Virus record (IMG/VR): IMGVR_UViG_3300007541_000099
Span: 1-32,391 of that record
Direction: 5' to 3' (one strand)
DNA length: 32,391 nucleotides
Source of the DNA: a virus
Shown here: one piece after another, positions 1,853-32,119 of the stretch
Layout: each line of letters starts with the position of its first letter
Position numbering within the stretch: the first letter of the stretch is position 1
Position numbers and translations under genes: made by a program
The notes under the pieces: generated by a model
Told to the model about the DNA's origin: nothing
What the model saw: only the letters and a program-made list of their open reading frames with translations
Database searches by the model: none

Positions 1853-4800
1853 ATGCCAAGTCCATTATCATTTGACGCAACCAAGGTTTTCAGAGACGCA
1901 TTACTTCTCAGAAATTTAAAACCGTATTCAAAACCTGGCTCATTTACACCAACTTCAGCTCCTGGAACCGGAGAAATAATACAAAATGAATATAGTGTTA
2001 TTGACTCTCCTGATGTATTAATTGATGCGGACCCATTTGTTGATGATGCAATTACTAAAAACATTTACAAACCAAACTTTGTTGATAAAAATCCAAACTA
2101 CGGAAAGGCAATAATTTTACCACCTAAGGGTGGTGAATATGGTAATGTACAACCATATGCTGATGCAATTTTAAGATTCTCACAAACCTTCCAACAAAAA
2201 ATCTATACTGAAAATTTGTATGGACCCACAAGTGGTTTGGATGATTCGGCTGACAATATATCAACTGATGATAGAATAAGAAACCAAGGACCTACATCTC
2301 AAAATTATTGGGACCCAATTAGTTTTGTTCCGTCATCTTATTCACCATATGAAATAATACTTCAGGACAATCCACAAGGTTCTGACGGTACATTGAGCCA
2401 AGATTCGTATATGCAGCAGATTTCTGCAGTATATCTAAAAGAAAATTTACAAAATAAAGTTGACCAATCAATTCAAAAACAAACTATAGGTCGTCTTAAT
2501 TTCTTAAATACTGACCCTGTAAACATTTCACAAATGTTATCAGGTAAAAGACCTTTAGTATTTCGTGATTATAAAATTACTGTTGGTGGTGGATTATTAG
2601 GTACAGGAATTGATTTATTACAGAGAATTGGTGGTATAACATTTCCGTTCTCACCAATTCCGGGTGACTATTTCCAACAACCAGAAAACAAAGAAAATAA
2701 CATCGCAACATCAATTGTTAATACTGTTGCAGGTGGTTTAGGAAGATTATTTGGGTTAAAACTCAATAAACAACAAACACCATCACAATTATTTTTAGAA
2801 TATACTGGTGAAGGACAAAAGGCTGAATTAGATACCAATATTAGTCTTAACAAATATAGACCTAATTACAGGTTGGCAAATTCTGCAAACTTTTTAAATC
2901 AAATTGGTAACGCAATAACAAATCCATTAGGTCTTTTTAGTAATTCAGGTAGTTTTTATGTTGGAAGTCCTGAAAGTAATCCAACATACGCAACATCACC
3001 TCCTGGCGCATTACCTAAAAATGAGTTGGGTGTTGAGGTCAACGCACCTGTATATCCTGACGCTTTAGGTAAACAATATGAAGGTGAAGAATCTGAAAAC
3101 TATCAATTCGGTTTAAAAGGTAAATCTTACGAAGATGGTGGAGGAGTTCAAGGTGGATTTAGTTGGTTATCACCAAAATGGGAAAAAGATGCTGGTAAAA
3201 ATGTTGGACCTGGGGGAAAAACATATGGAACAGACCCAAGTTACGACTCAAGTATCAGTAATGGATTAACATCAACTAAATCAACAAACTATACATTTAC
3301 TCCCGGTTCTATATTAGATGAGACTCAGAAATTAATTGATTCTGTTCCGGGTGGTGGTCCTGAAAGATTTAGTCATGTCGGTAACGCCATTGACCAAACG
3401 TCAAAAATATTCAGTGATGGGTATAAAGAGATGACAAAAGGTTCTCAAGTTATTTCATATATTGGAGCTGCGGGACAAGAGGTGGGTCAAGAATATTGTC
3501 GTATTTTTACAAAAGATACGCCTTTTTATCAGTATAGTGATTTACAGAGACGTAAGTGGAACAATGAGACTGGTAATATTAGAAAATCAAGTTACTCTGT
3601 TATTAACGGAGCGTACGATTTAAATATTGTACCGTACAGAGATACTGACCAAAATATTATTCATGACACTGGAGGACAACCAAACGGATATGTAAAAAAA
3701 TATTTATTCTCAATTGAGAATTTGGCTTGGAGGACATCAAGCAGACCTGGTTATACATACCAAGACTTACCTGTTTGTGAAAGAGGTCCAAATGGTGGTA
3801 GAATTATGTGGTTCCCACCGTATGATTTACAATTTGAGGAACAAACAAAGCCCGAGTTTAAAGCAAATAATTTCTTAGGTAGACCAGAGCCCGTTTATAC
3901 TTATCAAAATACTAATAGGACGGGTACATTAAGATGGAAAATAGTTGTTGACCATCCATCGGTATTAAATTTAATAGTTAATAAAGTATTGGCAAATCAA
4001 AATAATAGAGAAATTGTTGACTCTGTAATTAATTCGTTTTTTGCGGGATGTAGACAATACGATTTATATGATTTGGCAATTAAATATAATACAATACCGA
4101 CTAATGAATTATTTTATATTCAACAGAAGTTAAATTATCCTGATATCCCCGATGAGGAAATTAAGAAATTTACTGACCCCCAAAAAAACGAACCAAATAA
4201 ATTTGAACAACCTGGTGGAAATACACCTGAAGTTAAAAAATTTGTTAACTTAGGGTTCTATTTTGAAAACGATTGTCCAGGAGGTTCGCCAGGATGGGAT
4301 AGTAGTACAGGTAGTTTTTGTCCGACAGGGTCAAGAGGTGTTAAAAGTTATGAAACACTTTATAACAATTATACATCGGCATCTACAAAACAAACTTATC
4401 AGCAAAAATGTATTCAAACTAATGATGCTAAAACATCTGTGGCGAATTTCTTTACAGACATCATTGAAGACAATTTTAATGCAGCACAAAAGTTACTATC
4501 TAAGATACAATCAATGTTAGATAATGATGATGCTGAAAGTATTACCATTAACTTGATTGGTAGTGCATCTGCACCAAACACAAAATCATACAATGATAAA
4601 TTATCTAAAAGAAGAATTGAATCTGTTAGAACATACATTGAACAATGGCAAGGTGGTATTTTGGGTAAATACTTAACTAGTTCCCCTGTAAGATTAATTG
4701 TCAGAGAGGATGCTAGAGGAGAAACAACACAAAGAACCCCGACCCAATTCGCAAATACTGACAATCCAAAAGTATATCAACCAGCTGGTTCAACAGGATT

Positions 4801-6850
4801 TGGTTGTGAAGGTATTGATTTTGGCGCACCACAAGCTGAAAGTTGGTATGCGGCAAGACCAATGGCTTGTAGGGTTGTAACGATAACAAATGTTGAGGTT
4901 GTCCCTAAAAAAACCGACCCACCAATAATTGAAACTAATCCGGGTAAAAAACAATATGATGACGGTCAACAACCACAACCAAATAAACCAAAACCATACT
5001 ACACTACTACTGTTGGTATTAGAGAGAATATTTCTAAAAAAATTATTAGAAACTTATTGAGTGAGTGTGATTATTTCCAAGTCATCAAAGAAAATGACCC
5101 AATAGTGTTTGATTCAATCAAAGATAGGATTAAGTATTTCCAACCAGTGTTCCATTCAACAACCCCCGAAGGGTTAAATTCAAGACTAACATTCTTACAA
5201 CAATGTATGAGACCTGGTGACACAATACCAACTGTTGGACCTGATGGTAAAATGATATATAACGATGCTATTAATACAGCATTTGGTTCACCACCAATTT
5301 TAGTTTTGAGGATTGGGGATTTTTATAACACCAAAATTGTACCAACAAATATATCGTTTAAGTATGACCATTTTGATATTAACCCAGAAGGAATTGGATT
5401 CCAACCTATGATTTGTGAGGTTAATTTGTCATTTAATTTTATTGGTGGTAGTGGTATTGCAAAACCAATTGAGGAACTACAAAATGCCATATCGTTTAAT
5501 TTCTACGCTAACACGGAATTATACGATGAAAGAGCAACTGCAACCGAAGACACAAGCGCGTTGGACAAACAAGTTGTCCAAGCGATATTGGATGCACAAC
5601 CAACATTAACCGTAAATGCATTGTTGTTCCAACAACAAAACGGAAATGGTTCAACAATAGGTAAAATATTAACAGCCGAAGATTTACCAAACAACAGTCA
5701 AAGCGGAACAACATCTTATACTGATATTATGGATACTTTGAAAGCTCAAGCTCAAGAGTATTTCACTCAAACACAAAACTTTAATACTGGAATTGTCAAC
5801 GCATACAACTATGGAATGTTCCAAGCTACGTTGTCAGAGTTTAATTATACTGATGGAAGTTGGGGTCAGATTAACGGTACATCAATACCTGTTAATTTAT
5901 GGGGTAAACCAAAAGTCGCTCAAACCAATGTTAATAATGTTTTTAGTCAATTTATAAAGGATATTGAGACTGGTGATTTGGGATTATTTTCAGCACTTGG
6001 AGGATTGAATAATCCAAAACCAACTGACGTTAAATTAACTAAATCACAGGTTAGGGTTATTCAGAATAACTATAAAAAAATTGCGCAAGGTATACAATCT
6101 AACTTTAATTCATCGTTTACAACATCAATACAAACTATTGTTGAGGCAGAACAAAATTTAATTTTTACTATTGATAAAATTAATTTTGTAATAACAGAAA
6201 CGTCAGGTGTTAACACAGGTAGCGATGCGTATATGAACCCTAAAAACGAACCTGTTATATTCAATATTACAGGTGATACCATTATTGATGGTGTTAGTGT
6301 TGCTCAAAAAATGATTGAAGACTTTACTAAAGTTGGTACTGATGTTAATACATTTACTAATAACTTAAAAACAAGTGGATTTTGGCAAACAACATATACC
6401 AAAGTTGGTGAATTTAAACCAGCACCAAATTCTACATGGCCAGGAGCTGGTAATCTTTTAGATTATAATAGGGAATATATGGTGATGGCTCAGACAATCT
6501 TAAATGAAAAGACCTATAATGAATTTTTGGACAATATGGTTAAAAACATAGAACCTAAAGACCAAACTGAAAAAGTTAGAAATAGACTTAAAGAGTTGTT
6601 TGATTCTAGAAGAGATGAATATAGAAAACAACAAACAAGTGCGGAGTCTATGTTTAAAGAGTTTTCGGACAATAATCAACAATATTTAAATCAATACTCA
6701 CCATATGCTAATGGTATTGAAAGAACGTTTAAATTTACAAGAAATAGCGCCCCAACCGATATTCAAAAAACAAATGCTATTAGTCTATTCTCAACCGTAA
6801 ACATTGGTTCTGATAATAAAATTTATAATTTGAAAAAGAAGTTAGATTAA
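1853..6850 (+). CDS. Large tail/baseplate protein (tube-initiator-like) with embedded OmpA-like domain
   Basis: A 1665-residue protein following the tape-measure-like gene, the place of T4 gp48/gp54, which join tube to baseplate. Residues ~655-710 carry a motif typical of phage baseplate proteins (IMWFPPYDLQF, then RPEPVYTYQNTNRTGTLRW). Residues ~1090-1220 hold a second conserved-looking block (FHSTTPEGLNSRLTFLQQC, then LRIGDFYNTKIVPTNISF, then NPEGIGFQPMICEVNLSF) ending in FIGG. Between them, residues ~797-1012 read as an OmpA-like fold: a first strand LGFYFEND, a helix, strand ITINLIG (897-903), SYNDKLSKRRIESVRTYI (912-929) and a last strand RVVTITN (from 1007). The usual Asp of the GHTD motif is absent (GSAS here), while the Arg of the LSxRR motif is kept. 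No signal peptide or membrane segment is evident. The structural role is well supported by context; the gp48/gp54 equivalence is inference. Confidence 0.65.
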   Translation: MPSPLSFDATKVFRDALLLRNLKPYSKPGSFTPTSAPGTGEIIQNEYSVIDSPDVLIDADPFVDDAITKNIYKPNFVDKNPNYGKAIILPPKGGEYGNVQPYADAILRFSQTFQQKIYTENLYGPTSGLDDSADNISTDDRIRNQGPTSQNYWDPISFVPSSYSPYEIILQDNPQGSDGTLSQDSYMQQISAVYLKENLQNKVDQSIQKQTIGRLNFLNTDPVNISQMLSGKRPLVFRDYKITVGGGLLGTGIDLLQRIGGITFPFSPIPGDYFQQPENKENNIATSIVNTVAGGLGRLFGLKLNKQQTPSQLFLEYTGEGQKAELDTNISLNKYRPNYRLANSANFLNQIGNAITNPLGLFSNSGSFYVGSPESNPTYATSPPGALPKNELGVEVNAPVYPDALGKQYEGEESENYQFGLKGKSYEDGGGVQGGFSWLSPKWEKDAGKNVGPGGKTYGTDPSYDSSISNGLTSTKSTNYTFTPGSILDETQKLIDSVPGGGPERFSHVGNAIDQTSKIFSDGYKEMTKGSQVISYIGAAGQEVGQEYCRIFTKDTPFYQYSDLQRRKWNNETGNIRKSSYSVINGAYDLNIVPYRDTDQNIIHDTGGQPNGYVKKYLFSIENLAWRTSSRPGYTYQDLPVCERGPNGGRIMWFPPYDLQFEEQTKPEFKANNFLGRPEPVYTYQNTNRTGTLRWKIVVDHPSVLNLIVNKVLANQNNREIVDSVINSFFAGCRQYDLYDLAIKYNTIPTNELFYIQQKLNYPDIPDEEIKKFTDPQKNEPNKFEQPGGNTPEVKKFVNLGFYFENDCPGGSPGWDSSTGSFCPTGSRGVKSYETLYNNYTSASTKQTYQQKCIQTNDAKTSVANFFTDIIEDNFNAAQKLLSKIQSMLDNDDAESITINLIGSASAPNTKSYNDKLSKRRIESVRTYIEQWQGGILGKYLTSSPVRLIVREDARGETTQRTPTQFANTDNPKVYQPAGSTGFGCEGIDFGAPQAESWYAARPMACRVVTITNVEVVPKKTDPPIIETNPGKKQYDDGQQPQPNKPKPYYTTTVGIRENISKKIIRNLLSECDYFQVIKENDPIVFDSIKDRIKYFQPVFHSTTPEGLNSRLTFLQQCMRPGDTIPTVGPDGKMIYNDAINTAFGSPPILVLRIGDFYNTKIVPTNISFKYDHFDINPEGIGFQPMICEVNLSFNFIGGSGIAKPIEELQNAISFNFYANTELYDERATATEDTSALDKQVVQAILDAQPTLTVNALLFQQQNGNGSTIGKILTAEDLPNNSQSGTTSYTDIMDTLKAQAQEYFTQTQNFNTGIVNAYNYGMFQATLSEFNYTDGSWGQINGTSIPVNLWGKPKVAQTNVNNVFSQFIKDIETGDLGLFSALGGLNNPKPTDVKLTKSQVRVIQNNYKKIAQGIQSNFNSSFTTSIQTIVEAEQNLIFTIDKINFVITETSGVNTGSDAYMNPKNEPVIFNITGDTIIDGVSVAQKMIEDFTKVGTDVNTFTNNLKTSGFWQTTYTKVGEFKPAPNSTWPGAGNLLDYNREYMVMAQTILNEKTYNEFLDNMVKNIEPKDQTEKVRNRLKELFDSRRDEYRKQQTSAESMFKEFSDNNQQYLNQYSPYANGIERTFKFTRNSAPTDIQKTNAISLFSTVNIGSDNKIYNLKKKLD

Positions 6851-14479: not shown

Positions 14480-14510
14480 TTTGACAATCAAATAATCTTA
14501 CTTATATTTG
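14480..14510 (+). promoter_or_regulatory. Bacteroidota-type promoter for the SSB gene
   Basis: TTTG at 14480-14483 and TATATTTG at 14503-14510 are separated by 19 nt. This matches the -33 TTTG / -7 TAnnTTTG consensus of the Bacteroidota primary sigma factor. The expected transcript would start near 14517, giving a leader of about 30 nt, A-rich and lacking Shine-Dalgarno. It lies between a terminator and the SSB ATG at 14548. It implies transcription by host RNA polymerase and therefore probably early expression. Confidence 0.75.
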
Positions 14511-14547
14511 AAACAAAGACAATTAAACATTTTAAAAAACAAGTATT

Positions 14548-15390
14548 ATGAGTTCATTAGACGCCGTTTTGGCACAGTACGAAGAAAACACAAAGACAAC
14601 AGACACAAGTAATTACATGAGTCAAGAAGAAAGAATGCAAAAGTATTTTGCATGTATTCTATTGCAAGGTGAATCACAAGGGCAACGTAGAGTTAGAATT
14701 CTACCAACCAAAGATGGTTCATCTCCATTTAAAGAAGTATGGTACCATGAAATCCAAGTCGCAGGTAAGTGGCAGAAATTTTATGACCCAGGAAAAAATG
14801 ACAATGAGCGCTCACCCTTGAATGAGGTTTATGAAGAGCTTATGTCTACAGGTAAAGAAACCGACAAAGAATTAGCACGTCAGTATCGCTCACGCAAATT
14901 TTATATTGTAAAAGTTATTGACCGAGACAAAGAACACGAAGGTGTTAAATTTTGGAGATTTAAACATAATTTCAAGAACGATGGTATCCTTGATAAAATT
15001 ATTCCAATTTGGAGACAGAAAGGTGATATTACAGACCCTGAAAAAGGTCGTGACTTGATTATTCAATTGGTTAAATCAAAGGCACCCAATGGTAAAGAAT
15101 ACACAAGTATTCAGACAATTATGCACGATGACCCAACATCACTACATGAAGATGCTGAAACTTCAAAACTATGGTTAACAGATGAGTTGAGTTGGGAAGA
15201 TGTATACTCAAAAAAACCTGTTGAGTATTTGGAGGCGATTGCTCGTGGTGAAGTTCCACGTTGGGATGGTGAATTGGGTAAATACATTTATGGTGATGAT
15301 GAAACTGCTGAATTCGGTGGTACTTCAAAAGCATCATTACCTGTTGACCCCCAAGCGTCAATGGAGGCTGACGAAGACCTTCCGTTCTAA
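14548..15390 (+). CDS. Single-stranded DNA-binding protein, gp32-like
   Basis: A 280-residue protein that would coat ssDNA during replication and recombination. Its core resembles T4 gp32-family OB-fold proteins: YFACILLQGES, then QRRVRILPTKDG, KFYIVKVIDRDKEHEGVKFW, and a region after residue 140 with WRQKGDI and SIQTIMHDDPT. Aromatic and basic residues are frequent, as in an ssDNA groove. The gp32 zinc ligands are not present: only one Cys is seen, in the N-terminal part. The C-terminus is acidic and ends MEADEDLPF, which looks like the protein-docking tip of bacterial SSB (DDDIPF type). Length is close to T4 gp32 (301 aa). The gene has its own promoter and terminator, consistent with high single-gene expression, and is followed by uvsX, a T4-style functional partner. 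The SSB role is firm; one-to-one orthology with gp32 is less so. Confidence 0.85.
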   Translation: MSSLDAVLAQYEENTKTTDTSNYMSQEERMQKYFACILLQGESQGQRRVRILPTKDGSSPFKEVWYHEIQVAGKWQKFYDPGKNDNERSPLNEVYEELMSTGKETDKELARQYRSRKFYIVKVIDRDKEHEGVKFWRFKHNFKNDGILDKIIPIWRQKGDITDPEKGRDLIIQLVKSKAPNGKEYTSIQTIMHDDPTSLHEDAETSKLWLTDELSWEDVYSKKPVEYLEAIARGEVPRWDGELGKYIYGDDETAEFGGTSKASLPVDPQASMEADEDLPF

Positions 15391-19385: not shown

Positions 19386-20666
19386 ATGGAAAATTTTGTA
19401 GATATGATTGAAAATGAATCACGATTTGTAGTTAAAAGAAGTGGTGATAAAGTTTTGTTTGAATCTGAAAAAATTAAAAACGCGATATTAAAGGCTATGG
19501 AAAGTATTGATAAAGTTGATATTGATATGGCTGATAAAATTGCAAGACTAACTAAAAAAAGCATATTTAGAGGTGATAAGAATAGAGTACCACACGTTGA
19601 TGAGATTCATGACATGGTGGAAAATAAACTTATGGATAATGGATTAAATGATGTTGCCAAAGTATACATTATATACCGTTCAAAACACAGACCAAATATT
19701 TTTTCAAAACGTGTCAATTTGAAACCGTATGATTATCCGGATTTGGTGCAATACGTTGATGCTATTAGACACTCTTATTGGGTTCACACGGAATTTAATT
19801 TCACTTCAGATATCCAAGATTTTAAAGTACACTTGGATGATAAAGAAAAAAGTGCTGTCCAAAGAGCAATGTTGGCTATTTCTCAAATTGAAATTGCGGT
19901 AAAGACGTTTTGGGGTGACATTTATAAAAGAATGCCAAAACCTGAAATTGGAAATGTTGGTGCCACTTTTGCAGAATCAGAAGTTAGACACGCGGATGCG
20001 TATTCACACTTAATTCAATTATTAGGTTTAAACAGTGAGTTTGAAAATCTATTAGAGGTTCCCGCAATTCGTAGAAGAATTAAATATTTGGAAAGGTCAA
20101 TATCAAATTCAAAGTCGGTTGAAAATCAAGATTATTTTGAATCAGTAATTCTTTTCTCAATGTTTGTTGAGAACGTATCATTGTTTTCACAATTCTTAGT
20201 TATTATGTCGTTTAATAAACATAAGAATGTTTTAAAAGGTATTAGTAACGCAGTTGAAGCAACCTCAAAAGAAGAAAACATTCACGCTGAGTTTGGATTT
20301 GATTTGGTAAATACAATCAAAAGAGAAAACCCAACCTGGTGGACTGAAGACTTAATTGATGATTTGGTTGATGCAACTCTCAATGCTTACGATTCGGAGT
20401 CTCAAATTGTTGAATGGATTTTTGAAAAAGGTGATTTGGATTTCTTAACAAAAGAACAAACTTTAGAATTTATTAAACATAGATTCAATCTATCCTTGAA
20501 TGCTATTGGAATTAATAGTATATTTAATGTGAATCAAAAATTGTTGGAAACTACAGAATGGTTTGATGATGAAATTCTCACAACAAAACACACTGATTTC
20601 TTTAACAAGAGAAGTATTAATTACAGTAAGAAACAAAAATCAATAACACTGAACGACTTATTTTAA
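19386..20666 (+). CDS. nrdB: Ribonucleotide reductase small subunit with N-terminal ATP-cone
   Basis: A 426-residue class I radical-generating subunit that partners NrdA to make dNTPs. Residues ~13-101 are an ATP-cone (RFVVKRSGDKVLFESEKI, then VPHVDEIHDMVENKLMDNG and AKVYIIYRSKHR), normally found on NrdA; T4 NrdB (388 aa) lacks it. The ferritin-like core keeps the metal ligands: Glu169 (SQIEIAV), Glu199 and His202 (SEVRH), Glu262 (FVENVSLF), Glu297 and His300 (EENIH). Tyr206 sits at the radical-tyrosine spacing after His202. The first ligand reads as Glu where E. coli has Asp84. ATP-cone-bearing NrdB proteins are known in Bacteroidota such as Leeuwenhoekiella blandensis, where dATP drives inhibitory oligomerisation through NrdB. 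The gene starts 31 nt after the helicase and ends 15 nt before nrdA. The cofactor metal (Fe or Mn) cannot be told from sequence. Confidence 0.93.
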   Translation: MENFVDMIENESRFVVKRSGDKVLFESEKIKNAILKAMESIDKVDIDMADKIARLTKKSIFRGDKNRVPHVDEIHDMVENKLMDNGLNDVAKVYIIYRSKHRPNIFSKRVNLKPYDYPDLVQYVDAIRHSYWVHTEFNFTSDIQDFKVHLDDKEKSAVQRAMLAISQIEIAVKTFWGDIYKRMPKPEIGNVGATFAESEVRHADAYSHLIQLLGLNSEFENLLEVPAIRRRIKYLERSISNSKSVENQDYFESVILFSMFVENVSLFSQFLVIMSFNKHKNVLKGISNAVEATSKEENIHAEFGFDLVNTIKRENPTWWTEDLIDDLVDATLNAYDSESQIVEWIFEKGDLDFLTKEQTLEFIKHRFNLSLNAIGINSIFNVNQKLLETTEWFDDEILTTKHTDFFNKRSINYSKKQKSITLNDLF

Positions 20667-22467: not shown

Positions 22468-22932
22468 ATGGCTGATGGTAAAACATATGGTATAACGTTT
22501 CCGTTTAAAGATTCTTTTGATGGAAAATATTTGGATTTAACCGATTATACTCCTGAAGAGATTAGAACGGATTTAATTCATTTATTATTGACAAGAAAAG
22601 GGTCAAGATATTTTTTACCAGATTTTGGTACTAGATTATATGAGTACATATTTGAACCATTAGACGGACCAACATTATCTGATGTTGAGGCAGAAATTAG
22701 AGATTCTGTTGAAAAATACATACCAAATTTACAGATTAATGGTATTAGCGTGGTACCTGCTAGTACTGAAGAAGAAGATGGAACAGTTGTAACAGCCAAT
22801 GGTGCGGTATTGAGACAAGGGGATAGAATTAGTGACCAATCAACTAAAGATTATACTGCAAAGGTTAGAATTGATTATTCAATCACTGATGACGCGTTTA
22901 GTAGTAAAGATTTTGTAATAATTAATATTTAA
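22468..22932 (+). CDS. Baseplate wedge protein, gp25/GPW family
   Basis: A 154-residue protein of the gp25-like wedge family (T4 gp25, 132 aa), a core wedge component binding sheath and gp6. The central signature is clear: IRTDLIHLLLTRKGSRYFLP followed by DFGTRLYEYIFEPLD, including the EP pair of the family's EPR-type motif (Arg replaced by Leu here). It then has a helix (LSDVEAEIRDSVEKYIPNL) and C-terminal strands. A short acidic loop (STEEEDGTVV) accounts for the extra length. It is the first gene after the nrdA terminator and the first of a wedge operon, with the gp6-like gene 4 nt downstream. An out-of-frame ATG at 22461 is not used. Confidence 0.88.
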   Translation: MADGKTYGITFPFKDSFDGKYLDLTDYTPEEIRTDLIHLLLTRKGSRYFLPDFGTRLYEYIFEPLDGPTLSDVEAEIRDSVEKYIPNLQINGISVVPASTEEEDGTVVTANGAVLRQGDRISDQSTKDYTAKVRIDYSITDDAFSSKDFVIINI

Positions 22933-22936
22933 TAGT

Positions 22937-24775
22937 ATGGCGGAAAAAAGAATATCATACGCAGTTAGGGACTTCCAAGCAATAAGACAAGAGCTTATAA
23001 ATTTTACTAAAACTTATTATCCAAATCTTATTGATAATTTTAATGACGCGTCAATTTTTTCCGTATTTTTAGATTTAAATGCCGCGGTTGCAGATAATTT
23101 ACACTATCACATTGATAGAAGTATTCAAGAAACAGTTCTACAATATGCACAACAACGTTCATCAATTTATAATATTGCTAGAACATACGGTTTAAAATTA
23201 CCAGGTCAAAGACCATCAGTTTCTTTAGTTGACTTTTCAATTACCGTTCCGGCAAATGGTGACAAAGAAGACGATAGGTATTTGGGTATATTAAGAAGAG
23301 GAAGTCAGGTAGTTGGTTCTGGACAAGTTTTTGAAAACGTCCAAGATATTAATTTTGCATCACCATTTAATGCGGATGGATTTCCAAACAGATTAAAAAT
23401 ACCAAATTTTGATTCAAATAATAATTTAATTAATTATACAATTACAAAAAGAGAGGTTGTTGTTAATGGTATTACTAAAGTCTTCAAAAGAACTATAACA
23501 CCAAACGATGTTAGACCTTTCTTTGAATTGTTTCTTCCTGAAAAAAATGTTTTAGGTGTAACATCAATAATTCAAAGAGACGGAACCAATTACGCCAATA
23601 TACCCACAGCACAAGAATTTTTAAGTGCTGCTGGTAGATGGTATGAAGTATCTGCACTTGCGGAAGATAGGGTATTTGTTGAAGACCCAACAAAAGTATC
23701 TGACCAACCAGGAATTAAAGTTGGTAGATACATTCAAGTTCCGGATAGATTTATAACAGAATACACACCTGAAGGGTTTATGAAAATAACTTTTGGTGGT
23801 GGAACAAATACCGCAGAAGACCAATTAAGAGAGTTTGCACGTTTAGGTGTACCATTAAATTTAAGTCAATATCAAAATAATATTTCACTTGGTAATGCAC
23901 TCCAAGCAAATACAACCATATTCATTCAATATAGAGTGGGTGGTGGATTAGGTACTAATTTGGGTGTAAATGTCATTAATCAGGTTGGAACTGTTAACTT
24001 TATTGTGAATGGTCCATCATCGGTTATTAATCAAAACGTAATTAATTCATTAAGATGTAATAACGTATCTGCGGCTATTGGTGGTGCTGGATATCCATCG
24101 GTTGAAGAAGTGAGAAATTATGTAACATTTAACTTTACGGCACAAAACAGAGCGGTTACGGTTCATGACTATGAACAATTAATTAGAAACATGCCTTCTG
24201 AGTTCGGTGCACCAGCAAAGGTTGCTATTACTGAAAATGATAATAAAATAAACATTCAAATATTATCATACGATTCATCAGGAAAATTAAGCCCAGTAGT
24301 ATCAAATACACTAAAAAACAATATTGCCGAATATCTATCAAATTACAGAATGGTTAATGATTATATTTCAGTACAAACCGCAGAAGTAATTGATTTAGGT
24401 TTTGACGTTTCAGTTGTATTAGATGCAACACAAAACCAAGGTGTTGTTATTTCAAATATTATTGACAGAGTATCGGCGTATATGTCACCTATAGATAGAA
24501 CTTTAGGTCAAAACGTTTATTTATCTGAATTAAATAGAATTATTCAAAGTGAAAACGGTGTTATTACCGTTTCAAACATTTCAGTATTTAATAAAGTTGG
24601 TGGTCAGTATAGTTCGGCTCAGACATCAATGCCGTATTCAAATTCAACAACAAGACAAATACAACCTGTTGACGAAACTTTATTTGCTCAGCCAAACCAA
24701 GTTTATCAAATAAGGTTCCCGGAGAAGGACATTATTGTTAGAGTTAAAAATTTCCAGAGTGTATCTTACTCTTGA
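22937..24775 (+). CDS. Baseplate wedge protein, gp6/J-like
   Basis: A 612-residue wedge protein (T4 gp6, 660 aa). With gp25 and gp7-type proteins it forms the wedge core bundle and iris ring. The N-terminal ~75 residues (YAVRDFQAIRQELINFTK, then FSVFLDLNAAVADNLHYHID and QRSSIYNIARTYGLKLPG) are the usual gp6/J-like start. The middle is beta-rich with GGGTNTAEDQLREFARLG. The C-terminal half has the gp6-like lead HDYEQLIRNMPSEFGAPAKV and a later strand-helix set (VIDLGFDVSVVLDATQN, then IIDRVSAYMSPI). The start is 4 nt after the gp25 stop. No frameshift or truncation is visible. The gp25-gp6 order is conserved across contractile injection systems, which reinforces both calls. Confidence 0.87.
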   Translation: MAEKRISYAVRDFQAIRQELINFTKTYYPNLIDNFNDASIFSVFLDLNAAVADNLHYHIDRSIQETVLQYAQQRSSIYNIARTYGLKLPGQRPSVSLVDFSITVPANGDKEDDRYLGILRRGSQVVGSGQVFENVQDINFASPFNADGFPNRLKIPNFDSNNNLINYTITKREVVVNGITKVFKRTITPNDVRPFFELFLPEKNVLGVTSIIQRDGTNYANIPTAQEFLSAAGRWYEVSALAEDRVFVEDPTKVSDQPGIKVGRYIQVPDRFITEYTPEGFMKITFGGGTNTAEDQLREFARLGVPLNLSQYQNNISLGNALQANTTIFIQYRVGGGLGTNLGVNVINQVGTVNFIVNGPSSVINQNVINSLRCNNVSAAIGGAGYPSVEEVRNYVTFNFTAQNRAVTVHDYEQLIRNMPSEFGAPAKVAITENDNKINIQILSYDSSGKLSPVVSNTLKNNIAEYLSNYRMVNDYISVQTAEVIDLGFDVSVVLDATQNQGVVISNIIDRVSAYMSPIDRTLGQNVYLSELNRIIQSENGVITVSNISVFNKVGGQYSSAQTSMPYSNSTTRQIQPVDETLFAQPNQVYQIRFPEKDIIVRVKNFQSVSYS

Positions 24776-24852: not shown

Positions 24853-27800
24853 ATGCCTCAATCATATAGATTAAGAACACAATTAGGTGTTGACCAACAA
24901 ATACAAGTACAATTAGACCAAGACTTTGACTTTCTTGAATTGTTGTCGTTAAAGATAACACAATCAGATGTTTATAGTAGGCTTTGTTCTGATTATGGTG
25001 TTATTGTTGGTAGAGTTATTGCTAATGGTGGTTATGGAGTACCAAATGTAAAAGTCTCTGTATTTGTACCATTAGATGAGGCGGACGAATTAAATCCTGT
25101 AATATCAACATTATACCCATATAAACAACCAACTGATTTAAATGAGGATGGATATAGGTATAATCTTTTGCCCTACCAACCACAATATGATGGACATACA
25201 CCAACAGGGACATTTCCAAGTATTACTGATGTTTTAGATAATCAAACGGTTATTGAAGTTTATGAAAAATATTACAAGTATACTGTAAAAACAAATGACA
25301 GTGGTGACTATATGATTTTTGGTGTTCCAACAGGAAACCAAATAGTTGTGTTAGATATGGATTTATCCGATATCGGTCCATTTTCATTTTCACCACAAGA
25401 TTTAATTAGAATTGGTAAAGCAACAGAACAACAAATTAATGGTGCTACTTTTAAATCCTCAACCAATTTAAATGAATTACCTCAGATTGTTAATATTAAT
25501 ACACCAATAAATGTAAATCCATTTTGGGGTGATGAAGACTTTTGTCAGGCAAGAATTGAAAGATTAGATTTTGACCTAAGGGAGTTGGGATATGAATTTA
25601 CACCAACTGCAGTCTTTATGGGGTCAATTTTCAGTACACCTGATGAGGATAGGTTAAGAACTAATTGTAAACCCAAGGACAACATGGGTAATCTTTGTTC
25701 GTTAACAACAGGACCGGGTAGTATATTAGCAATTAGACAAACCATTCAAAGTGATGTTGATGGTAGACCAGTTCTTGAAGAGTATAGTTTAGAGAATAAC
25801 GGTAAAATAATTGATGACAATGGTACTTGGATGGCAGACGTACCAATGAATTTAGATTATGTTGTTACCAATGAGTTTGGAGAACAAATCATTTCAAATG
25901 ACCCGTCTATTGGTATACCAACCAAAGGTAAATATAGATTTAAAGTTAAATGGGACCAACCTGGCGATTTGCAAGAACAAGTTAAAAGGGCGTATTTCTT
26001 AGTTCCAAATATTAAAGAACATTGGGCAAACTCATTAACAGACCCATCGTATGATGCAACTGAAGATTATGTGTTTACATGTTCTGCTCAGGAAAGTAAA
26101 GGTAAGTACACATTTCCCGTTGGACAAAATATATATGTAAAAACATTTGCAAAGGCAACCTCAATAACAATTAGTAACCAACAAAATATTAAATTAACAA
26201 ATATTGGTGGTATACAAGTTCCAACAATTAATGTTTTTACAGGAACAAGTGCGGGTGTCTTTACATTAGTATCACAAAACCAATTACCATATACTGTTGA
26301 TGTTAAAGATAACGAAAAGATTAGAATTGAAATTGTTAGAAAAAATGCTAGTCAGAGTGCCAAGGTTAGTTATGTTGAAACAAAAATTAACGGAACTGAG
26401 GATAGTTCTGTTATATCCACAAATAATCTAAGTGGTAAGTTAGTTTTAAAGAATAAATTAAATGTTGAGTCTTTTGAGGTTTATATAAATAATGTTTTAT
26501 ATACAGGAGACAATGAAGAAGTTTCAGTTTTAAACGGACAGACAGTTAAAATTGTTTCTAAAGGGATTGAGAAAGATAGTTTATCAAGACTTACTTATGA
26601 GTTTCAAACAATAGCATTTGCCGCGTTACAAGAATCATACGCATTTAGTTTAAATTGGAATGACTATTATGATATTCAAGATGCTATAGATTGTAAGGAT
26701 ACCTTTTACGAGATGAGATATAATAAAGTTTATTCTGTTTCATCTCTAATTGACAATTATCAAAAGGGAACTGATTTTGGAGGAATAAATATTTTGAGTA
26801 CATACTTCAATAGAGGTAGATTTATTGGAATTAAAGAAATTGATTCAAGAGAGTGTGATGATACGGTAAATAAATTTCCTGTCAATGACGGGGTTCAGAA
26901 CTTTGATTTATTGTATTTTGTGGTATCCATATTATTACAACTTTTACAAGTTACAGGTTCAATATTATTATTTTCATACCATATTTTGGCATTTTTGTGG
27001 AATAATTTTGCAATACCATTAGTTATTGCATTAATTGCTTATACAGGATATCAAGCGTTTGTAGATATTAAAGCTGGAATTGCAGCGATTTCATCATCAG
27101 CTGGTGGTGGTTTTGCAAACTTTATAATGTCGGTACCATTTTTCTTAAGTGCTGCGGGAAATATTGCCACAGGTACTGTATTAAGTGTTATTTTATTTAG
27201 ACTTAGAAATCAAAAAATACCACCAATAAAACTACCAATGATGACATACCCAAATTGCGAGGCGTGTGATTGTGGAGATAGTTCTGCTGACGGTGGTCAA
27301 GTTATTTCATTGGGTGCTACTTGTTTGGTACAAACACAAATACCTAATTTTGAATTAGGTGATTTCCCTCCTGATTTAATTGATGGCCAATATCCTGATG
27401 ACGGTGATGATTATGATACTGAAAATGGTATTCTAAAATTAGTGACATCACAAGCATTAGTTGGTATGGTAGGTATTAAACAAAAAGAAAGAATTCCGGG
27501 TTATTTTAGAGTTGGTGCGTTCGGTGCATTTGGTTTACAATTACCATTATCTGAAAGATTTAATAAGTTTAATTTTAAGTCAACTTATTATACCAATACA
27601 TATACCACACCATCTAATCAAATGAAAGTAACTATTGAACCAAATTTAAATAGTGATTTTTATTTAGACCATTCATTAACTATTGTTACTAATGATGGTT
27701 GTGGATATTCACCAGGTGATTTAATAACATTTGTTGGATTTAACAATTCAAAAGACCCAAACCCATTTAGTGGTGAAACTAATTTTGCGGGAACATTATC

Positions 27801-30426
27801 AATTACAGGTACATCATTAACACCAAACATTATTAATGTAACATATGCTAATGATAAAAACTATAATAACAATATTACAAAACAGTTCAACCTCCCCACA
27901 GGTCCAACATCACCATATAGTGCGATAACAAGGACACAAATTGTTGGAACAGGACTTTCAGCAACCACTTATAGTTACCCTGCGGATGTTGAATATTTCC
28001 AAGTTGTTGATGTTTTAACTGTTGGTGAAATTAGACAACAATTCTGTGGTTCGGGTATTCCATATAGTATTTCAGAGATTTTACAGTCTCAGATGACTGT
28101 TGGATATTATAGAAAAGGTAATAATAAACCATTAGATTCTAATGATAAAATTGGTCAAATTAATTTCTCATATGGTACGGTTCCAGATGGTTCAGGAGGA
28201 GTTCAACCCGCGCCAAATAACATACAGACACAACCAACATTATTTGATGGTTTTGATGATTATCAAGTGGTTATTCTTCAAAGGGGAGTAGACCCGTATT
28301 CACCAGTATTTGATATTCAATATGACGTAAGTTCAATTTATGGGGCAACTAGCGGTAGTAGAATTGTAAGAGGTGGTTATAGAATCAACCAACCAATTTT
28401 AAATCTCAATGGCAACGGACCATTAACTATTAAACACAATAGCCTTTCAACAAACATTAGTACCGATAGAGGTATTAGTCTATTTAATACGTCAAACTTT
28501 TTCCAACCCGGAAGCCAATTTACAGGTTTTACAACAAACGCTCATAGGTATTATTCATCGTTAGATTCTACAAACCTATCATTTAAACCTTTTAATCCTG
28601 GATTAAATTTAGGAAGTTCTATTATTAATAATTCAAATAAGTTAAGTAGTAACACTTCTGTTAATCTATACTATAGCGGAGGTTTTAGTGCTAATAGCAA
28701 TAGACATAGATATTATTCTAGTTCTGCTGATATTATAGATGGTGGTTCATATATGTTTGTTGATGAGGACTATAAGTATGATGGAAAAACACCTGGTGAT
28801 TTTGAGGATGAGGCGGATGAAGAAATGTACTTCAGTCCTATGTATAATGAAAACACCGATATTGATTTTGATGTAATAGGAAAAAATAATATAATTATGA
28901 GGTCAGATAGAATGCCAACTTCTGACGTATTACAAGTTAATGGTGGTAACTCATATCAATTACATCAAAACCAAAACTTTGCAATTTATAACTTGAGTAA
29001 TCCATCCGCAGGTGCTAGTGCATCAGGTTTTGGTACAGGGGCTAGTCAGGGTAATATTAATGAAGATGGTAATTTCTTATCAGGAGTTTCACAATCTTTT
29101 GAATGTAGAGATATGGTATCACTTAATTGTTATCAATATGTCAATGATGGTTTGACTGTTATTGATAACTGTGACGGTGGTTCGGTTGACGGTGGATGTT
29201 ATGTATTTGTAAGAAATCCTATAACTGATTTAGGTAAAGATATTAAATATTTTAGTGAATGGGGATACAGATTTAAATTTTTCTATGGATTATGTAGAGG
29301 AGTATTATCACAAACATTTTCAAACAATTGGGTAAACGGTACATTATATGCATTTCCATTTCAGTTAAATGTTTATTATAGTGGTATAAATGCAACAAAC
29401 GCAAATGTTGCTCAAAGAGTTTATTGTAAAGACAATATTGTTTTACATAGTGAGTCTAATAATTTTTATTATAGAAGTTCACCATATAATGATAATAGTA
29501 ATAAGTTTATTGGAGCATCTGTAGATAATAGTTATGACCCACTAAATCAATCTCAATTATTATACCCAACAACGATTATTGATTTGGGTCCTAGAAGTTC
29601 ATTTATTAGAGATTTGGTTTTAAATCCGGAATATGATGGGTATAACATGACAAACATACCATCAACAAGTTATGGTGATACATCAGATTTAGTTAATTTC
29701 TTTACATATACAAGAATAACCAATCCTGAAATTCTTAAAAAAATAATTAAGATTAGAAACTCTGGAGTCAAAATTTTATTTGATAATAGAAAAAATGGTA
29801 ATAAAGAATTGGGTAGAGTTGATGGTGATTTAGCACAAATGATGTCAATTAATTCTGAGATTGGTGTTATAAAATATAATAGTCAATTCTATCAATCTAC
29901 TGGTAGTGCGAATCAACCTGTAATTTATAATAATGCTAATGGTGTTTTTGGTGTGTTCTTTTCATCAACAACAATTGATTTACAAGTTAAAGATTATATA
30001 ACACCTGGAAAAACAAACTTTAGAGGTTCTAATGGATTATTATTAGCGGAAAATCAATTTACCATTAACTCACAGGTTGTACCATTTTATCAATGGGGTT
30101 TAAAATCAGGAAATACGATATTTGGTAAACCCGAGAATAATTGGGAAACAAATAGAGTTGATATACTACAAAATATAAAGTATCAAGGATTAAATAGAGA
30201 CAATGTTCCGTATTTCCAAGGAGAAACACAATCAACTCTTCCCTATCCTAAAAATGATTTATATGAAAGAGGTTATTTATTTAATTATAAAAATAATAGT
30301 TATGAACCAGATGTGTTCCCAAATATGAGTACTAAATTTTTGGTGGGAGCACCATTCCATTTTTATTTTGGAATAGTAAAAGGTTCAAGTGCTATGGATA
30401 GATTTGTTAAGAAATATGTCAGATAA
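24853..30426 (+). CDS. Giant baseplate wedge protein in gp7 position, with membrane-like segments
   Basis: A 1857-residue protein following gp25 and gp6, the place of T4 gp7 (1032 aa). Residues ~45-175 contain a transthyretin/carboxypeptidase-regulatory-like beta domain split by a loop (GVIVGRVIANGGYGVPNVKV and later SGDYMIFGVPTGNQIVVLDM). Residues 686-784 hold three or four long hydrophobic stretches (LLYFVVSILLQLLQ, ILLFSYHILAFLW, FAIPLVIALIAYTGY and FFLSAAGNIATGTVLSVILF), long enough to cross a membrane. A cysteine cluster CEACDCG follows at 802-808. Residues ~1220-1300 contain two copies of an HRYYSS-containing unit. The remainder is Asn/Ser/Tyr-rich beta-type sequence, ending PFHFYFGIVKGSSAMDRFV. 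Its last 11 nt overlap the next gene. The structural role is likely by context; homology to gp7 is unproven, and a membrane-active or ejected tail protein is an alternative. Confidence 0.55.
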   Translation: MPQSYRLRTQLGVDQQIQVQLDQDFDFLELLSLKITQSDVYSRLCSDYGVIVGRVIANGGYGVPNVKVSVFVPLDEADELNPVISTLYPYKQPTDLNEDGYRYNLLPYQPQYDGHTPTGTFPSITDVLDNQTVIEVYEKYYKYTVKTNDSGDYMIFGVPTGNQIVVLDMDLSDIGPFSFSPQDLIRIGKATEQQINGATFKSSTNLNELPQIVNINTPINVNPFWGDEDFCQARIERLDFDLRELGYEFTPTAVFMGSIFSTPDEDRLRTNCKPKDNMGNLCSLTTGPGSILAIRQTIQSDVDGRPVLEEYSLENNGKIIDDNGTWMADVPMNLDYVVTNEFGEQIISNDPSIGIPTKGKYRFKVKWDQPGDLQEQVKRAYFLVPNIKEHWANSLTDPSYDATEDYVFTCSAQESKGKYTFPVGQNIYVKTFAKATSITISNQQNIKLTNIGGIQVPTINVFTGTSAGVFTLVSQNQLPYTVDVKDNEKIRIEIVRKNASQSAKVSYVETKINGTEDSSVISTNNLSGKLVLKNKLNVESFEVYINNVLYTGDNEEVSVLNGQTVKIVSKGIEKDSLSRLTYEFQTIAFAALQESYAFSLNWNDYYDIQDAIDCKDTFYEMRYNKVYSVSSLIDNYQKGTDFGGINILSTYFNRGRFIGIKEIDSRECDDTVNKFPVNDGVQNFDLLYFVVSILLQLLQVTGSILLFSYHILAFLWNNFAIPLVIALIAYTGYQAFVDIKAGIAAISSSAGGGFANFIMSVPFFLSAAGNIATGTVLSVILFRLRNQKIPPIKLPMMTYPNCEACDCGDSSADGGQVISLGATCLVQTQIPNFELGDFPPDLIDGQYPDDGDDYDTENGILKLVTSQALVGMVGIKQKERIPGYFRVGAFGAFGLQLPLSERFNKFNFKSTYYTNTYTTPSNQMKVTIEPNLNSDFYLDHSLTIVTNDGCGYSPGDLITFVGFNNSKDPNPFSGETNFAGTLSITGTSLTPNIINVTYANDKNYNNNITKQFNLPTGPTSPYSAITRTQIVGTGLSATTYSYPADVEYFQVVDVLTVGEIRQQFCGSGIPYSISEILQSQMTVGYYRKGNNKPLDSNDKIGQINFSYGTVPDGSGGVQPAPNNIQTQPTLFDGFDDYQVVILQRGVDPYSPVFDIQYDVSSIYGATSGSRIVRGGYRINQPILNLNGNGPLTIKHNSLSTNISTDRGISLFNTSNFFQPGSQFTGFTTNAHRYYSSLDSTNLSFKPFNPGLNLGSSIINNSNKLSSNTSVNLYYSGGFSANSNRHRYYSSSADIIDGGSYMFVDEDYKYDGKTPGDFEDEADEEMYFSPMYNENTDIDFDVIGKNNIIMRSDRMPTSDVLQVNGGNSYQLHQNQNFAIYNLSNPSAGASASGFGTGASQGNINEDGNFLSGVSQSFECRDMVSLNCYQYVNDGLTVIDNCDGGSVDGGCYVFVRNPITDLGKDIKYFSEWGYRFKFFYGLCRGVLSQTFSNNWVNGTLYAFPFQLNVYYSGINATNANVAQRVYCKDNIVLHSESNNFYYRSSPYNDNSNKFIGASVDNSYDPLNQSQLLYPTTIIDLGPRSSFIRDLVLNPEYDGYNMTNIPSTSYGDTSDLVNFFTYTRITNPEILKKIIKIRNSGVKILFDNRKNGNKELGRVDGDLAQMMSINSEIGVIKYNSQFYQSTGSANQPVIYNNANGVFGVFFSSTTIDLQVKDYITPGKTNFRGSNGLLLAENQFTINSQVVPFYQWGLKSGNTIFGKPENNWETNRVDILQNIKYQGLNRDNVPYFQGETQSTLPYPKNDLYERGYLFNYKNNSYEPDVFPNMSTKFLVGAPFHFYFGIVKGSSAMDRFVKKYVR

Positions 30427-32119
30427 AAACGATTCAATAAAAGTTATTAAAGGTGTTGATAGATATAAATCGGCATCAAGTGTTGATTATAATATTAACA
30501 CAGAACTTACGCAATCGCAAAATCAATATACCGATAGTGATAGGACTATTTCTTTAAATTTGGCACAAGTTTTTGATGACGAAAGACAATCATCTTCAAT
30601 ATTCCGACCAACATTTAAAATCCAATATTTTTATCATAATTCTTATACAGGTTATAGTGAATATTCAGTATTTAAAGATTCGTTAGGTTATGTTAATGCG
30701 TTAACAAGTCTTGAAAATAATGTTGGTTTTTGGTACGGATACCCACAGTATGTAGAGTTTGATTTTTTCAGAAAAGATGTAAATAATCCACAAGTAAACT
30801 TTGTATCTAAAAGTGCAACATCATACAATTGGACATATTATTTCTCATACCCATATTCCAATGATTCATCAGTTCAAATGTCATATACCGACCCAAGTGG
30901 TGTCAATCAAAATATTTGGAATAGTGGTGACGGTATTCCATTTGAAATTACTAATGGTAGTGACAACGGATTTAATATTATATCATTTAATTGTCCTGTC
31001 AAACACGGTCTGAATATTAGTGAATACGTTCAGCTTAACTTATCTTATAATGGTAATAACCTATTTCAAGTTTATTCTCTAGGTAACGGTTCTGATGGTA
31101 GTTCTGAATATGTATTTAACATCGCCAATGTTGGATATACAGGTGGTACATTTGGAAATGGAGTAACGGGAATATTCAAACGAATTGTTAATATTCAAAA
31201 TTCAGGCGAAACTACATCAAAATATTATGTAAGACTTCATAAAATCATCACTAATGTTGATGAAATGGCGTTAACAAAAACAGGATTTGAACAAGGACCG
31301 TTTTCTGATAGAAGGACCTATCAGTATTCAGCTCTTACACCAAACAATCAGGCAAGAATTAGTCAAAGACAAAGTAATAATGTATATAATTTAACTTGTG
31401 AGAGAGATATTAATATTAACGGATTGGTTGATGGTAATAAAAAACCAATTAGTCAGATGTATCTGACATTTGTTAATAAGGGGTATTACGGTTGGTTTAA
31501 TAGATTTGGACTTAAAAAGGGTTGGGCATTCAATATAACACCAACAACAAACGAGTGGTGGAATTATTCCAATGTTTTAAGTAATGAGAATATATCAACA
31601 TCTAATTATATTAAAACGCAAAATGGTGTTGATTATACTTTTTATTATATGAACAACTTAGTTTCTGGTGATACTATATATGGAGATTGGTGTGAATATA
31701 ACGAGTTTAATCAGACTGAAAGAGTAATATCAAATTATTATCATAAAATGACATTTAATGGTAATGTATTTAATATAAACGCAACAAACGCAGCAAATCC
31801 TGATGGATATTATTATCAAGTACATTTCCCAATGCAAATAAGAGAATATTCAGAATATGTGGAAGAGGGGAGCACACAAGACGTGATTGGTGTACCAACG
31901 TATGCGACGTATTCGGAAAATAAAAAAGTTTGGAGATGGAAGGATTTATATACTTATGGTTTTGTTGACGATAAAAATAGAGGAGTTGATTATCCATTTA
32001 TAAATGATGCTCATTATCCATATAAAAATGTATTCTTTAGACTAATACCCGAAGGTGCATTATTAAGTGGACTAAACTATACATTAATAACACAACCAAT
32101 CATAGATGAGTGTGAATAA
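30416..32119 (+). CDS. Baseplate/tail protein in gp8 position, unknown family
   Basis: A 567-residue beta-rich protein, heavy in Asn, Tyr, Ser and Phe, without signal peptide, membrane helix or enzymatic motif. I take the ATG at 30416 (MSDKNDSIKVIKG): it overlaps the upstream stop by 11 nt in the same way as the hub gene overlaps gp53. The more upstream in-frame ATG at 30389 would lengthen the overlap to 38 nt. The C-terminal ~150 residues form a distinct compact part (NGNVFNINATNAANPDGYYY, then VWRWKDLYTYGFVDDKNRG and FFRLIPEGALLSG). T4 gp8 (334 aa) follows gp7 and joins wedge proteins, so a wedge or peripheral baseplate role is plausible from order alone. It could also be a fibre-attachment protein. 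Family not recognised. Confidence 0.6.
   Translation: MSDKNDSIKVIKGVDRYKSASSVDYNINTELTQSQNQYTDSDRTISLNLAQVFDDERQSSSIFRPTFKIQYFYHNSYTGYSEYSVFKDSLGYVNALTSLENNVGFWYGYPQYVEFDFFRKDVNNPQVNFVSKSATSYNWTYYFSYPYSNDSSVQMSYTDPSGVNQNIWNSGDGIPFEITNGSDNGFNIISFNCPVKHGLNISEYVQLNLSYNGNNLFQVYSLGNGSDGSSEYVFNIANVGYTGGTFGNGVTGIFKRIVNIQNSGETTSKYYVRLHKIITNVDEMALTKTGFEQGPFSDRRTYQYSALTPNNQARISQRQSNNVYNLTCERDININGLVDGNKKPISQMYLTFVNKGYYGWFNRFGLKKGWAFNITPTTNEWWNYSNVLSNENISTSNYIKTQNGVDYTFYYMNNLVSGDTIYGDWCEYNEFNQTERVISNYYHKMTFNGNVFNINATNAANPDGYYYQVHFPMQIREYSEYVEEGSTQDVIGVPTYATYSENKKVWRWKDLYTYGFVDDKNRGVDYPFINDAHYPYKNVFFRLIPEGALLSGLNYTLITQPIIDECE

Follow-up and report, generated by a model that had tools for sequence, protein, structure and literature searches.

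Gene neighbourhood and domain organisation

The window, that is the whole stretch of viral DNA that was analysed, is a 32.4-kb virus record (32,391 nt). It carries a baseplate gene cluster in which a very large reading frame, encoding 1857 residues, lies directly after a gp6-like gene. The features of this region, with the residue numbering of the 1857-residue protein, are as follows:

22468..22932, plus strand: gp25-like baseplate wedge protein (PF04965, phrog_261, phrog_43)
22937..24775, plus strand: gp6-like baseplate wedge protein (Baseplate_J; phrog_219, PF04865)
24853..30426, plus strand: gene of the baseplate-position protein, 1857 aa, open reading frame confirmed
24985..25596, plus strand: Ig-like N-terminal domain (carboxypeptidase-regulatory/transthyretin-like), residues 45-248
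26053..26628, plus strand: insert of ~190 residues (residues ~401-592) before the module region, absent or different in most relatives
26815..26907, plus strand: conserved upstream anchor RFIGIKEI..C..NKFPVND..NFD, with C668
26908..27204, plus strand: hydrophobic module, residues 686-784, about three (possibly four) membrane-type segments
27226..27273, plus strand: conserved downstream anchor KLPMMTYPNCEACDC, with C802, C805 and C807 (CxxCxC)
27370..29050, plus strand: variable middle region, residues ~840-1400, 22% mean pairwise identity, with apparent mosaic exchange in one close pair
29080..30423, plus strand: more conserved C-terminal part, residues ~1410-1857, ending FHFYFGIVKGSSAMDRFVKKYV
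30416..32119, plus strand: next gene, conserved with the cluster, no function assigned

In the last of these genes ATG 30416 is a likelier start than GTG 30389, since relatives align from around residue 19 of the GTG reading, with 46-50% identity. Elsewhere in the window, a weak match to the OmpA family (PF00691, E 1.9e-4, below the cut-off) lies at 4478-4675, inside the open reading frame 1853-6850 that encodes a 1665-residue tail-region protein; this stretch is a possible candidate for a peptidoglycan-binding part.

The 1857-residue protein displays no Pfam or PHROG match at E ≤ 0.01, and a tblastn search against 50,697 phage records returned no match even at E 10. Relatives were therefore reached through the gp6 neighbour and then through a profile of the N-terminal domain. 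With gp6 as the handle, about 75 closely related loci were collected, about 60 of which have a homologue adjoining gp6, while the N-terminal profile gave 593 matching stretches in viral contigs, from which 80 loci were kept. A gp6-like reading frame ends at most 1.5 kb upstream in 141 of the 149 homologues with enough upstream sequence, a fraction that arises partly by construction, as part of the set was gathered via gp6 itself, although for the 80 loci of the second collection the N-terminal domain was the sole handle. The label “baseplate protein” is well supported by this gene order. A further family member is the uncharacterised A0A8S5LA66 of BFVD (Myoviridae sp. ctPuP5; Foldseek E 6.8e-37, 46% identity over 389 alignment columns). 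Proteins of 1265-1400 residues encoded 3' of gp6 in Flavobacterium phage immuto, Microcystis phage Mel-JY01 and LR756508 are likewise large and share the gene neighbourhood, but they lack segments with a 19-residue mean Kyte-Doolittle hydropathy (KD19) above 1.6 and were rejected as the same gene (hhalign probability 0.05%). A hand-made pattern for a P2-gpI-like motif, applied to the window reading frames with an alternative, true gp7 in mind, matched only in Mel-JY01.

We infer, weakly, a host among the Bacteroidota, on the basis of the labels of metagenome-assembled genomes (MAGs), gp6 similarity, few Shine-Dalgarno sites, a promoter motif and the ATP-cone of NrdB. The N-terminal profile matched six MAG contigs, several of them labelled Bacteroidales, Bacteroidota or Cytophagales. 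The gp6 of the window is similar to that of a Flavobacterium phage, but also to that of a cyanobacterial phage, and most gene starts of the window lack a clear Shine-Dalgarno site. One Bacteroidota-like promoter motif, TTTG...TAnnTTTG, is located at 14480-14548, about 70 bp before an ssb-like gene. The small subunit of ribonucleotide reductase (NrdB; 19386-20666, PF00268 and PF03477) bears an N-terminal ATP-cone, and the large-subunit gene comes directly after it. ATP-cones usually reside on the large subunit of ribonucleotide reductases, and an NrdB with an ATP-cone is a form known from a flavobacterium.

The Ig-like character of the N-terminal domain emerges from relatives and models. Of 43 relatives, 38 match CarboxypepD_reg (PF13620) when E values up to 0.1 are admitted, the best being 2.2e-5. 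The window protein falls short of a PF13620 match, but its model resembles such folds (VIA-align Z 7.6 to teneurin and Z 7.5 to carboxypeptidase D), as does that of a relative (Z 8.8 to carboxypeptidase N). When two models of low to medium confidence were compared by Foldseek and VIA-align, mainly Ig-like and pilin-type domains were found among the matches listed. VIA-align rows for Vip3 and for receptor helices over residues 684-799 were taken as generic helix matches, not as relatives. The insert at 26053-26628 shows no consensus in an alignment of 49 relatives and is probably β-rich. In the C-terminal part, the FYFG..G..A.D motif is also present in the family-wide consensus. The module is bracketed by the two anchors, the C668 anchor upstream and LPMxTYPxCxxCxC downstream; among 61 homologues with the upstream anchor, its Cys is found in 54 and the downstream CxxCxC in 52. 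It is possible, if speculative, that the four Cys residues bind a metal and so close off the module at its base.

Hydropathy and conservation of the module

An original prediction, made from the DNA alone, had described residues 686-784 as an almost continuously hydrophobic stretch of three to four membrane spans in an otherwise polar protein of a kind expected to be soluble. The stretch corresponds exactly to 26908-27204 and has a mean KD of +1.41, compared with -0.32 for the whole protein, and the hydrophobic run was borne out. The most hydrophobic 99-residue window of the protein starts at residue 684, and the highest 99-residue mean among 2000 shuffles was only 1.03. The top 19-residue means are 2.12 (residue 689), 2.14 (residue 711) and 1.71 (residue 763/764), and thus helix-length segments above KD19 1.6, as expected by hydropathy of a membrane-inserting protein, are present in the module. 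The best single 19-residue window nevertheless falls within the shuffle range (mean shuffled maximum 1.83, highest 3.21) and, as the peaks alone do not exceed shuffles, the significance of the module rests on the length of the stretch and on its conservation. Only three charged or His side chains, H710, D738 and K740, occur in residues 686-782. A comparable block is absent from the other window proteins, where the highest peak is 1.75 (NrdB-like protein), and the charge flanking the module is asymmetric, with a mean of -0.9 before and +2.4 after.

Structure prediction with AF2, using 43 relatives, draws helices at residues 686-747 and 754-786 with a per-10-residue mean pLDDT of 53-81 (moderate), confidence being low outside the helices. 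Three to four spans are plausible as a number, but neither hydropathy nor the AF2 helices fix the exact count, and by hydropathy alone membrane-inserted and buried helices look alike. An approximate in-house transmembrane segmenter, which placed two segments of 25 residues (705-729 and 757-781), fires on 55 of 300 shuffles and was dropped. Searches of the module alone against Pfam and PHROGs gave only chance-level matches, with no Pfam family above the cut-off.

Hydrophobicity at this position is a property of the family. At least one segment with KD19 > 1.6 lies at the module position in 106 of 110 non-redundant homologues, and the most hydrophobic window of the protein falls at residues 440-800 in 107 of the 110. 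Segment number varies widely across the same set, from none to six windows, and in many distant relatives there is just one hydrophobic helix, which contains charged residues and is in some cases weaker. Membrane insertion is thus not essential family-wide, given the four homologues in which no segment passes the threshold. In the relative L132 (1032 aa; model pTM 0.67) a helix extends over residues 447-486 at the module position. A short homologue of about 745 residues (L089:2813-5110), on a contig binned as Candidatus Wolfebacteria, lacks the module altogether and constitutes a natural control.

Within the window's clade, 36 long relatives were compared: mean pairwise identity (gaps counted) is 17% in the module, as opposed to 63% in the N-terminal and 36% in the C-terminal part. 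In the same relatives its mean KD is 1.32 (range 0.46-1.94), all other regions having means below 0, and its length ranges from 43 to 128 residues. Most members of this clade retain a recognisable first hairpin, NFDxLYFxFSILxxIxQxxGxPLLxxYHxxAFLWN, beyond which length and segment number vary. The middle region, at 22% identity, also changes fast; what sets the module apart is that hydropathy is kept despite sequence change.

When segment number is mapped onto an N-terminal-domain tree, 41 changes are required, against 54.6 with shuffled labels. In two homologues with N-terminal parts that are 94% identical (L010 and L016), the modules measure 119 and 56 residues. A second pair (L158:510-6164 and L163:3095-8731) is ~99% identical to about residue 600, mostly 30-70% identical to about residue 1400 and then about 90% identical, which looks like mosaic exchange of the module together with the middle region. 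As judged from these alignments, the module sits at the border of the conserved core and the variable region. Low identity with kept hydropathy, together with gain and loss of segments, is more in keeping with selection for contact with lipid than with a soluble, packed core.

Comparison with T4 gp7 and contractile injection systems

The original prediction had set the module against T4 gp7 as a soluble wedge protein, a premise that proves weak. T4 gp7 (NP_049765) reaches KD 2.07 in one 19-residue segment (886-904), and its RefSeq record states that the “C-terminus is predicted integral membrane domain”; the contrast survives in so far as only one such segment is present. The T4 gene, NC_000866 83060-86158 (L187:3061-6159), resembles that of the 1857-residue protein in lying directly after gp6 in the baseplate cluster and in encoding a very large product with a hydrophobic segment. 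The differences are pronounced. The single segment of gp7 is near the C-terminus, whereas the module is a block of ~100 residues in mid-protein, and the best 99-residue KD mean of gp7 is 0.19, compared with 1.41 for residues 686-784. No match of gp7 to the Ig-like N-terminal domain was found, hhalign of A7 and A3 against gp7 gave probabilities of 0.1% and 0.3%, and a PDB profile search returned no gp7. Nor is T4 gp7 among the Foldseek matches listed for the models of the window protein and L132, which is no proof of a different fold. With no sequence, profile or fold match found, “gp7” is best used as a positional label, and the protein would be described as in gp7 position rather than as a gp7 family member. 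No discussion of a role for the gp7 hydrophobic segment was found in the literature searched.

Membrane contact at baseplate level has precedents outside phages. In the thylakoid-anchored contractile injection system (CIS) of Anabaena, an extension of the baseplate component Cis12 makes a wide connector to the membrane, and anchoring requires the transmembrane helix of the tail-fibre-like Cis13 (PMC8894136). The proposed role of the module resembles that of these proteins, although Cis12 has no predicted transmembrane domain, only a putative amphipathic helix, the membrane is the thylakoid of the producer and the system is not a phage (PMC8894136). In AlgoCIS, the gp7-like part of the gp6-gp7 fusion Alg12 is exposed on the lateral surface and described as a hotspot of evolutionary re-engineering (PMC8894135), in which the 1857-residue protein resembles it; in contrast with the module, PMC8894135 mentions no transmembrane element.

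A putative membrane-contacting module of the baseplate

Taken with the analogy to Cis12/Cis13 and AlgoCIS, these observations make membrane contact of a phage baseplate the best reading. The membrane-helix character, the place of the gene in the baseplate cluster and an evolution that fits lipid contact support in part the original suggestion, in which a tail protein would insert into the host membrane, be released on contraction or act as a channel-like component. The specific proposal, which we hold tentatively and at somewhat less than an even chance, is that the protein is part of the virion baseplate and that, during infection, its hydrophobic module either enters the host envelope or lies against it. 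The protein would occupy the position of T4 gp7 and of the gp7-like part of eCIS Cis12/Alg12. Its conserved N-terminal Ig-like and C-terminal parts would probably be seated in the baseplate, with the variable middle probably exposed, and the module of membrane-type helices would be held at the junction between the conserved Cys anchors. In the extended baseplate the helices may stay packed; docking or a shape change of the baseplate would expose them, allowing insertion into or contact with the host envelope (the outer membrane if the host is Gram-negative), and this contact would keep the baseplate anchored as the tube is pushed across.

The most serious competitor, which we regard as unlikely, is that the helices never meet lipid and instead make up a hydrophobic core inside the wedge, formed by this protein by itself or jointly with a neighbouring one. 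T4 gp7 makes this conceivable: its KD19 2.07 segment belongs to a chain deposited in several PDB entries of baseplate structures, so that no conclusion can be drawn from one hydrophobic helix in a wedge protein. The packed helices drawn by AF2 and the distant family members with one moderate, charge-bearing helix point the same way. A stretch of about 100 residues that is nearly free of charge is less readily explained as a core, and a packed core should keep its contacts, whereas the module keeps its hydropathy at 17% identity and differs in segment number between near-identical proteins. The sequence data thus favour lipid contact over a packed core; which membrane is met, when, and whether it is spanned lie beyond their reach.

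Lipid contact might also take place in the producing cell, where the module would hold wedges at the inner membrane while tails are assembled or positioned, without any part in infection. The baseplates of tCIS and T6SS are tied to a membrane of the producing cell (PMC8894136), and the absence of an N-terminal signal together with asymmetric flanking charge recalls co-translationally inserted helices. The charge asymmetry is only a weak hint, a lytic virion must leave the membrane again, and neither a partner nor a cleavage site was identified, which makes such a tether rather improbable. Release of the module on contraction, alone or cut out, as an inner-membrane pore for DNA or ions is less probable still. 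The multi-span module of many relatives is compatible with a pore, and the partial tape-measure-like reading frame of the window and its relatives contain no segment with KD19 > 1.6, leaving room for another channel former; but the module resembles no Pfam family above the cut-off, and a specific channel would hardly be expected to range from none to six segment windows. Least probable of all is a membrane protein of the infected cell that is simply encoded within the baseplate cluster. The membrane-type helices would suit such a protein, and a place in the virion is predicted, but the gene follows gp6 across very divergent phages, and the product is very large, begins without a signal sequence and carries an adhesin-like Ig domain.

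How contractile phages grip and pass host membranes is still poorly understood. Found in more than 100 sampled contigs, mostly from a viral metagenome collection, the module is widespread whatever its role, and hydrophobicity conserved free of sequence makes it a concrete, testable candidate for direct contact between baseplate and membrane. With considerable reserve, we put forward the possibility that contractile-tailed phages of a large and mostly uncultured group have, in a baseplate wedge protein, a multi-span module that evolves fast and enters the host envelope when the baseplate docks. If true, it is the baseplate itself that would bear the membrane anchor, instead of the tape measure or the spike, a change of hosts would go along with gain and loss of helices, and these phages would be tied to the membrane-anchored injection systems, whose baseplate extensions do such a job.
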